Positions 44,653 to 47,795 of a stretch of 64,000 bases of DNA are shown piece after piece. A program made the translations under genes and the position numbers. Where the stretch lies: positions 1-64,000 of the forward strand of contig CAITYF010000031.1 in the NCBI GenBank assembly GCA_903896545.1, in the 5' to 3' direction. The notes beneath the pieces were generated by a model, which ran no database searches, was not told where the DNA came from, and was given only the letters and a program-made list of their open reading frames with translations. Source of the DNA: an uncultured Myxococcales bacterium. Lineage in GTDB: Bacteria; Myxococcota_A; UBA9042. The stretch's first letter is position 1. Every line of letters begins with the position of its first letter.

Positions 44653-44813
44653 GTCGGTTCGAGCGGTCGCCGATCCGGCGGCGCACTTTGTAGAGACAAA
44701 CGCTCGACTTGCAAGTGATCCAAGCGATGGCACGTTTCTTGCTTCCTCTGCAGCTGAAGGTGGAGGAGCGCGACGCTTGCCACCGACTGGGCGCGTGCCG
44801 TCGAGGTCTGCTG

Positions 44814-47795
44814 ATGCTTACAATTCAACGGTTTCTGGCGTTTCTGGTGGTTTTCGCGGGTGTGCTGACGGCGCCGCGTGCGTGGGCGATATGCATCGCG
44901 CAGAGCGCGGGTCTGGACTGGAGCATTCCGGCGGACGGCGCCAAGGACGTGCCGACCAACGTGACGCTGTGGCTGGGAATTCGCGTGATGGTGGGCGGTT
45001 TTAGCACAGAGCCGTGGACGGTGACGCTGGACGGCGTGGAACTGCCGCATTCGAGTTCGGCGGATCCGTCCGTGGCGATGCAGTTCAAGCTGCCGCAGCC
45101 GCTGGCACCGCACACGCACCACGTCGTGCACTTGGCGTATCCGGGCGTGAAGAGCCAGCCCAGCGAGCTGCCTTTTGACGCGACGATCGCATTCGACACC
45201 GGCGCGGGACCTGACCTGAGCGTGCCGGTTCCGCCACAGATCAGCGGTTTTATCGAGGACGCGCAGGTCAAACCGGCGACGGGAACCTGCGCGCTCTCGC
45301 TTTTTGCGCCTTACTGCTTGGACACCGGCGGCGCAATGTGGCGCACCTTGACGACCGACGCCACGCCCGCCGCGTGGATCGTGCGTTTCCACGACGGCAA
45401 GTACCCCGTCGTCTCGGCAACAAGCTGCACGCCCAAGGCGTGGTACATGTCTGAAAGCGTGGAATATTACGCCACGCCCGGCGACGGCTGCTGGAAAGTC
45501 GAGGCGATCGACAGCGTCGGACGCGTCTCGCCAAGCACGATCGTCTGCAAACCCGGGAGCGGCTCTGATGCGGGCAGCTTGAGCGACGACGTCAGCGGCA
45601 CGGTCATCGAGACGCCCCCACCGAGCAGCTCCAGCGGCTGCACGGCGGGAAACAGCAGTAGCGGCGGCTGGTTGGCAATCTGGGCGAGCCTCGCAGCGAT
45701 CGCGGTGCGGCGGTTCAAGGCGCGCCGGATGTGGCTCGTGAGCGTCGCAGTCTTGGCGGGTTGCGGAACCGCGAGCACGGAAAACAGCGAGGGCAGCGAC
45801 GTCATCGGGCAGAACGATTCGGTGGACGCAGACTCGGCGCCAGATGGCGGTCTCGCCGACGCCGGCACGGACGCTTCATCGGCCACGGACGCAGACGTCA
45901 TCGAAGACGCCGATTCAGGCACCTCCGACGCCGAATTCGGGGTCGACGTAGGCAGTTCTGACGCGTGGACAACGTGCCCGCCCGAACCCGACTTCAACCA
46001 AGCCAAGTGCGCGGGCACTTTACACTGCACGTACGGGCAGGAGTGTTGCTGCGGCGAATGCCACCCATCCACGCAGTGCGAGTGTAACGGCGGCGTCTTG
46101 TGGTGCGGCGCGACGGACGCGTGCTTCATGCCCCAGTGCTCGGACGGCTGCGGCTTTCAGCAGTACAACACCCCCAGCGGCTGCCAATCCTGCGACGCGA
46201 TTCAAACCGAATTGCCCGTCGCGCTCGCCGCTGCCATCACACCTTTTGACGGCTGCAGCGGCTCAAGCGACTGCGCCAGCGTCGACGCGTTCGTCGGCTG
46301 CGGCGGCAATTGTCCGTTCGCCTTGGCCAGCGACCAGACCACAACCGGCGCCAACGCGCTCAGTCAAGCCGCCATCGGCTGGTGCGGCGGGTACGGCAGT
46401 TTTGGTTGCGGCATCAACTGCCCGCAGGCCGGCAAGCCCGCGTGCGTACAAGGCCACTGCAAGCTGGTCGGCATTTGCGACCCGCAAGTCGCGCCCACAG
46501 GCAGCGCGTGCGACGACGGCGACGCCTGCACCAGCGGCGACGTGTGCACCGGACCCGGAAAGTGCGCGGGCACAACGGTGAACTGCGACGACGGGAACGT
46601 CTGCACGGCAGAAATCTGCCTAAAGGACACCGGCTGCCACTACGCGCCGACTGCGGGCGCGTGTTCCAGCAACGTCGCGTGCAGCCTCGGCGGCTCATGT
46701 AGCGCGGGCAAATGCTTGGACGGCGGTGCGACGGGCTGGACAGTGACGCTGCCCAAGCCGGAATCGGGGCTGGACGGCGCGCTGACGCAAATGGCGGATG
46801 GCTCGTACGTGATTGCCCACGCGGTGCTGAACCAACCGATCGCGCGGGTGATTCACGTGGATACGGCGGGCAAAGTGCTGTGGGACAATGCGGATGTGGC
46901 GACCGGCTACGCCTCGGACGTGCGCGGGCTGGAGGATGGAAGCGTGCTCGTCGCGGGCCATTTGCCGGCAGGTCAGTGGCCCGACGGGAAGGCGGTGCTG
47001 TGGCGTCTGGACGTGGCGGGCAAGCTGACCCAGACGACGGAGATTCCCGCGTCGTTGCCGGGCAACGTGCGGCTCGCGGTGCGACCGGAAGGCGGCGCGG
47101 TGGTGACGGGGTCGTTTCAGCCCGCGCTGGTCAACGCTTGGAACGCGTTCGTCGCGCGCGTGGACGCGTCCGGCACGCTGCTGGGCAAGACCGACTTGGG
47201 CGAGGTCGGCAACTACGGGTATCAGACGTATCCGGCGGCGCACACCGGCAGCATCGGCGTGCTGACCTCCAAGACCATGCCAGACGGACTGACCGACGCG
47301 CGTTTCGTGCGTTTGGACGCAACAGGCGTTGTGCAAGTTGACGTGCCCGTGCTGCCCGCGCCGACGAACGACCAGCCCACCGGACTGCTCGCCCTCGCCG
47401 ACGGCTTTCTGGGCGCGATGGGCACGATGGACTACCAAAAGGGCGGCAGCAAAGTGCCAAGCGCCGTAGTGTTTCGCCTGAACGACGCAGGCGCGGTCGT
47501 GTGGCAGAAGTCGCTGACGCTCATGGGCGCGTGGCTGGCACCCGAAGGCGCGGGCTTGCTGGTCGGCGGTTGGACGGACGGCGGTTCGGCGCAAGCGGTG
47601 ATGCACGTTTCTCAGCTGAGCGCGGACGGCATTCTCACCGGCGACGTAACGCTGCCGGGCAGCGCGCTGGGCAACGGCGCGGTCTGGCTGGCGTCCGCAG
47701 GCAACGGAAGCCCGCTCTTTGCGGCGGTGACCGGAAGCGGCGCGCAGGTGAAGGTGATTCGCGTGTTGCCGCCGGGGAGCGCCTGCACCCCGTGA
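44814..47795 (+). CDS. fused surface-protein gene: MYXO-CTERM-tailed protein joined to a Cys-rich lipoprotein
   Basis: One frame of 993 residues looks like two genes without a stop between them. Part 1 (1-305) has a signal peptide (FLAFLVVFAGVLTAPRAWA), an Ig-like segment (DVPTNVTLWL...) and a tail GCTAGNSSSGG + hydrophobic helix + RRFKARR, the layout of a MYXO-CTERM sorting signal. Part 2 (306-993) opens with MWLVSVAVLAGC, a full lipoprotein signal, then an acidic tether, Cys-rich modules (about 385-640) like those of the giant gene, and a ~350-residue beta-propeller-like end (VDTAGKVLWDN repeats). ATG 45729 could start part 2 alone; AAGG lies upstream. Start ATG 44814 follows GAGG. Confidence 0.75.
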   Translation: MLTIQRFLAFLVVFAGVLTAPRAWAICIAQSAGLDWSIPADGAKDVPTNVTLWLGIRVMVGGFSTEPWTVTLDGVELPHSSSADPSVAMQFKLPQPLAPHTHHVVHLAYPGVKSQPSELPFDATIAFDTGAGPDLSVPVPPQISGFIEDAQVKPATGTCALSLFAPYCLDTGGAMWRTLTTDATPAAWIVRFHDGKYPVVSATSCTPKAWYMSESVEYYATPGDGCWKVEAIDSVGRVSPSTIVCKPGSGSDAGSLSDDVSGTVIETPPPSSSSGCTAGNSSSGGWLAIWASLAAIAVRRFKARRMWLVSVAVLAGCGTASTENSEGSDVIGQNDSVDADSAPDGGLADAGTDASSATDADVIEDADSGTSDAEFGVDVGSSDAWTTCPPEPDFNQAKCAGTLHCTYGQECCCGECHPSTQCECNGGVLWCGATDACFMPQCSDGCGFQQYNTPSGCQSCDAIQTELPVALAAAITPFDGCSGSSDCASVDAFVGCGGNCPFALASDQTTTGANALSQAAIGWCGGYGSFGCGINCPQAGKPACVQGHCKLVGICDPQVAPTGSACDDGDACTSGDVCTGPGKCAGTTVNCDDGNVCTAEICLKDTGCHYAPTAGACSSNVACSLGGSCSAGKCLDGGATGWTVTLPKPESGLDGALTQMADGSYVIAHAVLNQPIARVIHVDTAGKVLWDNADVATGYASDVRGLEDGSVLVAGHLPAGQWPDGKAVLWRLDVAGKLTQTTEIPASLPGNVRLAVRPEGGAVVTGSFQPALVNAWNAFVARVDASGTLLGKTDLGEVGNYGYQTYPAAHTGSIGVLTSKTMPDGLTDARFVRLDATGVVQVDVPVLPAPTNDQPTGLLALADGFLGAMGTMDYQKGGSKVPSAVVFRLNDAGAVVWQKSLTLMGAWLAPEGAGLLVGGWTDGGSAQAVMHVSQLSADGILTGDVTLPGSALGNGAVWLASAGNGSPLFAAVTGSGAQVKVIRVLPPGSACTP
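45636..45728 (+). other. internal MYXO-CTERM-type sorting signal
   Basis: Residues 275-305 of the fused frame: Gly-Cys, a short Ser/Gly linker, a hydrophobic helix (WLAIWASLAAIAV) and a basic end (RRFKARR). Such signals normally sit at the very C-terminus and are processed at the Cys for surface anchoring. Here the frame continues into another protein. Confidence 0.65.

Follow-up and report, generated by a model that had tools for sequence, protein, structure and literature searches.

FbcH (cytochrome b/c1) exemplifies bacterial polyproteins that are split at an internal signal peptide: one chain is made, and its second part is freed by signal peptidase. The first part of such proteins is not known to carry a sorting tag or a lipid anchor, in which they differ from the layout proposed here. 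Paired bacterial surface proteins are usually made from two genes. In Myxococcus xanthus, MXAN_5598 carries an internal MYXO-CTERM motif ahead of an OmpA-domain outer membrane beta-barrel, and the authors who described it considered that two genes may have fused, with processing of the N-terminal part proposed to continue (Guo, Haft and Wall, mBio 2025, PMC11980579); MXAN_5598 also appears in a vesicle proteome (PMC4158809). The passages of the mBio paper that bear on such motifs call internal copies rare, report that MrtX cleaves MYXO-CTERM and that the conserved cysteine is required in TraA, and treat MYXO-CTERM lipidation as so far only proposed (PMC11980579). Here, we describe a single open reading frame in a 64,000-nucleotide stretch (the window; positions 1 to 64,000 of contig CAITYF010000031.1, assembly GCA_903896545.1) of an uncultured Myxococcales bacterium, in which a MYXO-CTERM-like tail runs directly into a lipoprotein signal. 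Judged from its sequence, the gene probably encodes one precursor, a processed polyprotein, of two surface proteins. As in MXAN_5598, one frame joins a large exported region with an internal MYXO-CTERM to a second envelope protein; unlike that protein, with its OmpA beta-barrel, the second part here is a lipoprotein with a lipobox. The arrangement also resembles traA/traB of myxobacteria, as described in the same source, where a MYXO-CTERM protein is encoded next to another envelope protein, but those are overlapping open reading frames and thus two genes, whereas the junction in the window lacks any stop (PMC11980579).

The frame contains the following features (aa, residues of the window protein; G000, the genome of the window; other G numbers, other genomes of the phylum, of which G003 carries the same intact frame; L numbers, loci that were read):

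44814..47795, + strand: fused open reading frame of 993 aa with an ATG start; same intact frame in G003
44814..44888, + strand: N-terminal export signal MLTIQRFLAFLVVFAGVLTAPRAWA, aa 1-25; putative cleavage site placed by eye
44889..45551, + strand: exported domain 1, aa 26-246, without a Pfam family; 81% identity to the G003 copy
45552..45632, + strand: linker, aa 247-273
45636..45728, + strand: MYXO-CTERM-like tail, aa 275-305, with GC signature, helix 286-298 and basic cluster RRFKARR
45708..45728, + strand: basic loop RRFKARR (RRFRTRK in G003), which closes the tail and is the putative n-region of the second signal
45729..45764, + strand: lipoprotein signal MWLVSVAVLAGC, aa 306-317, with lipobox LAGC and Cys317 at 45762-45764; identical in G003
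45765..45965, + strand: acidic, fast-evolving tether, aa 318-384; 24% identity to G003
45966..46733, + strand: Cys-rich lipoprotein region, aa 385-640, with YGQECCCG and CDDG-type repeats; has stand-alone lipoprotein relatives
46734..47792, + strand: C-terminal repeat region, aa 641-993; beta-propeller-like by the look of its repeats only

The coordinates, the frame and the stop-free junction at ATG 45729 that had been given in the initial annotation were all confirmed: the 993 codons are continuous, with no stop codon between the tail (aa 275-305) and ATG 45729 (aa 306), and upstream the frame stays open as far as a TTG at 44709. In an 11-residue hydropathy scan, only the N-terminal signal (the strongest hydrophobic segment of the protein), the tail helix (aa 286-298) and the lipoprotein signal (aa 306-318) exceeded a mean of 1.9. 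Pfam searches returned nothing at cut-off in either half, and the family profile searches found no OmpA or barrel family in the C-terminal half (C-half); a PF00526 match in the Cys-rich region was below cut-off, and a delta_60_rpt match in the repeat region far below it. An AlphaFold2 model built on the two-sequence alignment had a mean predicted local distance difference test score (pLDDT) of 30.9, too low for use.

The MYXO-CTERM-like tail, GCTAGNSSSGGWLAIWASLAAIAVRRFKARR (Cys276 at 45639-45641), shows the Cys signature, the helix and the basic cluster in the expected order (GCTAGN-helix-RRFKARR), and this order is kept in G003. No NCBIfam family other than TIGR03901 is listed for the tail. 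Together with the presence of a myxosortase-core protein in the genome, these three elements match the MYXO-CTERM/myxosortase pathway (TIGR03901, NF040914); unlike a typical TIGR03901 tail, the one in the window is internal, with 688 residues after it, and falls below the family cut-off. Directly after it comes a signal of the Lgt/LspA lipoprotein type, with a hydrophobic stretch, a lipobox (VSVAVLAG-C, identical in G003) and an acidic tether after the Cys. In contrast to ordinary Lgt/LspA-type lipoproteins, this signal is preceded by 305 residues of the frame and lacks basic residues itself: K and R are absent from aa 306-317, and the basic residues stand upstream, in the MYXO-CTERM-like tail. 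At all 12 stand-alone loci related to the C-half, K or R precedes the hydrophobic stretch (judged by eye; the start at L099 is uncertain).

Of the 52 genomes that were searched with the whole window protein, the same-genus genome G003 holds both halves in one open frame, on contig CAIPXZ010000414.1 of an uncultured Myxococcales metagenome-assembled genome (CAIPXZ01); a contig scan with two peptide patterns gave this contig as the sole match. The two proteins share 74% identity, and G003 keeps both cysteines (Cys276 and Cys317), the basic cluster and the lipobox. Relatives that carry the same fused frame with an unconserved tail had been named as evidence against the initial reading; the relative found is fused and retains the tail features, just as it retains the signal and lipobox of the claimed lipoprotein start. 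Ratios of nonsynonymous to synonymous change (dN/dS), obtained by codon comparison of the two genes and rough for the short segments, were 0.84 for the first signal (aa 1-25), 0.34 for domain 1 and about 0.33 for the tail (aa 274-305). The lipoprotein signal gave about 0.05, with 12 of 12 residues identical despite a synonymous divergence (pS) of 0.47, and the tether after Cys317 gave 1.03, a sharp contrast in selection across that cysteine; the remainder of the C-half after the tether gave 0.27 and 0.22. An error of assembly or sequencing that removed a stop or shifted the frame, for which the draft state of the genome (272 contigs) might speak, is extremely unlikely given that the CAIPXZ01 genome shows the junction equally uninterrupted at 74% protein identity and that like junctions occur in 20 genomes; the base error or frameshift that had been named as possible evidence against the initial reading was not borne out. 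A frameshift ending the first gene was also considered: a TGA in another frame stands 10 bases downstream of the first base of ATG 45729, also in G003, and since it falls within conserved codons for WLVSV, its conservation is expected.

Among the three readings of the initial annotation (a lost stop that fused two genes, an internal start of the second protein, and a processed polyprotein), the third appears from these patterns to fit best. In this scheme, the chain would be exported from its N terminus until transfer is halted at the MYXO-CTERM helix; the short basic loop would stay cytoplasmic, and the lipoprotein helix would re-enter the membrane as a hairpin with the same loop as its n-region. 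Myxosortase would then cut at Cys276 and leave domain 1 anchored by its C terminus, while Lgt would lipidate Cys317 and LspA cut before it, which would anchor domain 2 by its N terminus. The helix-loop-helix between both cuts would be discarded, and the products, two lipid-anchored proteins opposite in polarity, would arise in a one-to-one ratio.

Several points weigh against this scheme. The window tail scores 11.9 bits against TIGR03901 within the N-terminal half (N-half) and 16.3 bits alone, with a curated cut-off of 20; the orthologous tail of G003 lies exactly at the cut-off with 20.0 bits, and eight of ten fused tails scored reached 20 or more (G003 included), the tails of the window and of locus L180 being those below. 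The tail claimed at aa 275-305 is thus upheld by its layout and its conservation in G003, though not by its score. Furthermore, the linker before the tail, with a dN/dS of 0.28, is as conserved as the tail (0.33), so that the tail is not distinct on that side, and the scheme presupposes that Lgt and LspA accept an internal signal that comes after another helix. The continuous frame and the weak MYXO-CTERM score of the tail would also suit an uncut or half-cut two-domain protein, a single anchored protein whose domains are joined by a membrane hairpin. We regard this as quite unlikely: the two cysteines and the complete lipobox have been retained ahead of a tether that drifts, and in a sister case (the L180-type pair described below) the halves are separate in G036, one with a terminal MYXO-CTERM and the other with its own lipoprotein signal.

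Tails that run into a second signal were also collected elsewhere, with fused signals judged by eye without a signal-peptide predictor. The own genome gave 33 TIGR03901 hits at E up to 10 (14 over cut-off; the window tail is not among them), and 27 of them were judged plausible once L064, L065, L067, L071, L096 and L097 were left out. Four of these 27 (L044, L053, L063 and L066) run into a second, Sec-type signal, making five of 28 tails with the window gene; their frames carry EGF, DUF4215, TSP3 or fn3 before the tail and, in two of the four, OmpA after it. Four frames of 623 to 3122 codons in this genome (L082 to L085, on G000 contigs C56, C175, C153 and C159) hold an internal MYXO-CTERM and a Sec-type second signal, and the OmpA endings of L083 and L085 reproduce the MXAN_5598 layout. 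For the phylum, we took 90 strong TIGR03901 hits, unselected for fusion, from a search of 112 genomes (30 best-per-genome loci plus 60 of about 120 other listed rows, about every second one). Among these tails, 83 end within 20 residues and one within 21 to 40, and six continue; five meet a second signal, of Sec type at L224, L243 and L270 and of lipoprotein type at L274 and L298, and the sixth run-on, L277, has 42 further residues without a signal and was left out of the fusion count. Since the 90 are high-scoring tails, the rate for weaker ones may differ. Nevertheless, the initial view that all three readings are unusual was too strong, given that tails recurrently run into a second signal both in the phylum sample and in the own genome.

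A search with the window junction in 52 genomes of the class produced 28 further loci, seven of which (L113, L119, L120, L128, L132, L135 and L136) run into a second signal. At L132 (G020:C482), the tail leads into a Sec-type signal and then a protein with a CxxCH motif in the printed stretch, possibly haem-binding. A profile of five such junctions, run against 377 genomes, gave many more candidates, and 40 regions were fetched from both junction searches, hand-picked because the match continued without a stop. They comprised 25 MYXO-CTERM-to-lipoprotein and 13 MYXO-CTERM-to-Sec junctions, one doubtful case (L193, whose tail has no Cys) and one repeat (L194, the other contig end of the L195 gene), the last two being left out. 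Adding the window gene, G003, L274 and L298 brings the total to 29 lipoprotein fusions in 20 genomes; further cases, L304 and L328, are not counted among the 29. Since they were found with models built from junctions and picked by hand, the 29 show recurrence and not frequency. Across them, the distance from the last basic residue to the Cys is 11 to 20 aa. As a control, the stretches that follow 84 ordinary MYXO-CTERM tails were scanned in three frames. A simple lipobox detector fired in four of these 252 windows, versus 28 of the 29 selected fusions, and a Sec detector fired five times in the 252 windows; the detectors miss L175 and L224, both called fused by eye. Grouping by blastp placed the 29 N-halves in 16 groups and the C-halves in 19, which are upper bounds because some pieces are short (15 residues for the C-piece of L195, about 100 for the N-pieces of L206, L274 and L298), so that about 15 and about 18 are the safer figures. 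This diversity of sequences points to many separate origins of the fusion layout, though old kinship may be hidden.

These collections also bear on the possibility that the two proteins are made separately, the lipoprotein starting at ATG 45729 (or GTG 45705) and the first protein being C-terminally extended or lost by read-through. Shine-Dalgarno (SD) energies, the duplex energies to the anti-Shine-Dalgarno, were compared with in-frame positions as background. At ATG 45729, the value is -6.2, joint second of 13 in-frame ATGs, and 18% of in-frame positions are as good; at the G003 equivalent it is -4.0 (46% as good). GTG 45705 reaches -3.3 and its TTG counterpart in G003 -1.7, and the comparison starts gave -7.1 for the gene's own ATG 44814 and -9.3 for 49425. 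Eleven stand-alone C-half starts range from -6.3 to -10.5, with GGAGG in seven of them. An internal start is thus no better served than the in-frame background, and because no stop intervenes, a full-length product would still be expected. In favor of such a start, ATG 45729 (Met306) is kept in both species, its -6.2 comes near the weakest stand-alone start (-6.3) and exceeds the presumed starts of two neighbouring genes (43380 and 47910, only -5.9), and the GTG (window) or TTG (G003) at codon 298 would supply a basic n-region. Because the neighbouring gene starts look no better than ATG 45729, the SD test alone is weak and leans away from an internal start without deciding.

Start codons at the other junctions can be read in the same light. 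No ATG, GTG or TTG is present in the start zone of nine of the 29 lipoprotein junctions; 20 have one nearby, which is an ATG in seven. In both sets of junctions, these counts leave out start codons closer than about 9 to 11 residues to the cut site and do not include rarer starts, CTG for example. At L180 and L197, a TTG or GTG that lies in frame within the hydrophobic stretch has a strong SD-like energy (-12.0 and -11.9). Only two of 20 Sec-type junctions have no ATG, GTG or TTG, and six have an ATG, so that the test says little for this type. Taken together, separate synthesis of the second protein is unlikely, and the internal start considered in the initial annotation found little support in the SD background and in the nine junctions without a start codon, the conserved Met306 and the equally poor neighbouring starts being what remains in its favor.

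Next, we considered where the two halves of the precursor come from, each half having been compared separately with relatives, as had been suggested at the outset. For the N-half, none of the remaining 375 of the 377 genomes of the phylum gave a strong match, with up to six candidates scored per genome, and ten other genomes matched weakly (E values of 2e-5 to 8e-4) in this search. For the C-half, or its Cys-rich module, the comparison gave the separate genes that had been looked for: a lipoprotein signal of its own opens the frame at 12 of the 12 other loci read. The matches exceed 600 residues at L098 to L101 and span 160 to 320 at L102, L103, L108 and L109; L104 to L107 match only over the Cys-rich module (53 to 94 residues). 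No same-strand frame printed upstream of these 12 loci ends in a MYXO-CTERM tail, with only 305 bases upstream at L100. As strong matches to the N-half are confined to two species and the C-half relatives that were read stand alone, none after a MYXO-CTERM tail, the fusion seems to be peculiar to this lineage and to predate the divergence of the two species, as far as the sequences tell. The suggestion of a lost stop that fused two genes thus holds as an account of an older origin; as a recent event it fails, the fused frame being common to two species at 74% identity. A recent stop loss that left the tail as a functionless relic within a fused protein is very unlikely for the same reason and in view of the selection on the tail (dN/dS about 0.33) and on the lipoprotein signal (0.05), even though the C-half is otherwise a stand-alone lipoprotein. 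Separately, the Cys-rich module (CTYGQECCCGxC; 45966-46200 in the window, and L104 to L107) stands behind a number of lipoprotein signals in the class that otherwise differ.

Such gene pairs occur apart, overlapping and fused, and the L180-type pair makes the step to fusion directly visible. Both halves of the L180-type pair lie in one frame in G008, G013, G020, G035, G050 and G051, and most of both halves in G028, where the contig ends; in G010, the gene is seemingly broken between two contig ends and is presumably fused there as well, which gives eight genomes in all. In G036 (L325, C135:1-9000), the halves are separate on one strand, C-half first, with one 748-codon frame between them; this C-half has its own lipoprotein signal including K/R, and a terminal MYXO-CTERM closes the N-half. 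G023 has the halves on different contigs; its C-half likewise carries a signal of its own, and its N-half closes with a Cys-helix-basic tail and a stop. Because the halves in G036 are reversed in order with another frame between, the L180-type fusion may, by these sequences, have needed a rearrangement. In the own genome, a MYXO-CTERM gene at L046 (G000:C51:91199-94282) overlaps a lipoprotein gene (MKLLKKMAARAVLLWPLAC...) by ATGA, a possible halfway state between gene pair and fusion, and at L045 a lipoprotein gene follows 39 to 51 bases after a MYXO-CTERM gene.

On balance, we lean toward a broader version of the same proposal: Myxococcota would use a general class of surface polyproteins, repeatedly arisen from gene pairs, in which an internal MYXO-CTERM is followed by a lipoprotein or Sec signal, both sharing an arginine loop, and in which myxosortase together with LspA (or signal peptidase I) would release two oppositely anchored proteins in a fixed ratio. 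Given that MXAN_5598 has already been described, the internal-MYXO-CTERM kind is known; the lipoprotein version, the shared basic loop and the recurrence and scale look new. Compared with the passages of PMC11980579 that call internal motifs rare, about fifty second-signal cases were read here. A MYXO-CTERM-to-lipoprotein fusion was not found in the published work surveyed on MYXO-CTERM/myxosortase, polyproteins and internal signals, a scope that did not include the founding in silico study or Table S1 of PMC11980579. If the scheme is true, cutting one precursor with a CTERM protease and with LspA would offer a compact route to two lipid-anchored partners, one to one and delivered together, and myxosortase would become testable anew, the fragment downstream of the internal tag being a traceable lipoprotein. 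Annotation tools that expect MYXO-CTERM at chain ends alone, or lipoprotein signals at chain starts alone, would overlook such proteins.

The enzymes that the scheme calls for have counterparts in the own genome. A myxosortase-core protein (L093:1504-2508, - strand) scores 109.5 bits against NF040914 (cut-off 100), with EExxxR and HxxxN present, and does not reach the subfamily cut-offs for MrtP, MrtC or MrtX. Lgt (on C261) scores 167 bits (cut-off 118.9), and LspA lies right at its cut-off of 73.95 with 73.9 bits (74.7 with neighbours). At G000:C103:41938-43293, an LspA gene is accompanied about 400 bases on, on the same strand, by a second Lgt-like gene (113 bits, cut-off 118.9), a candidate for the MYXO-CTERM acyl-transferase.

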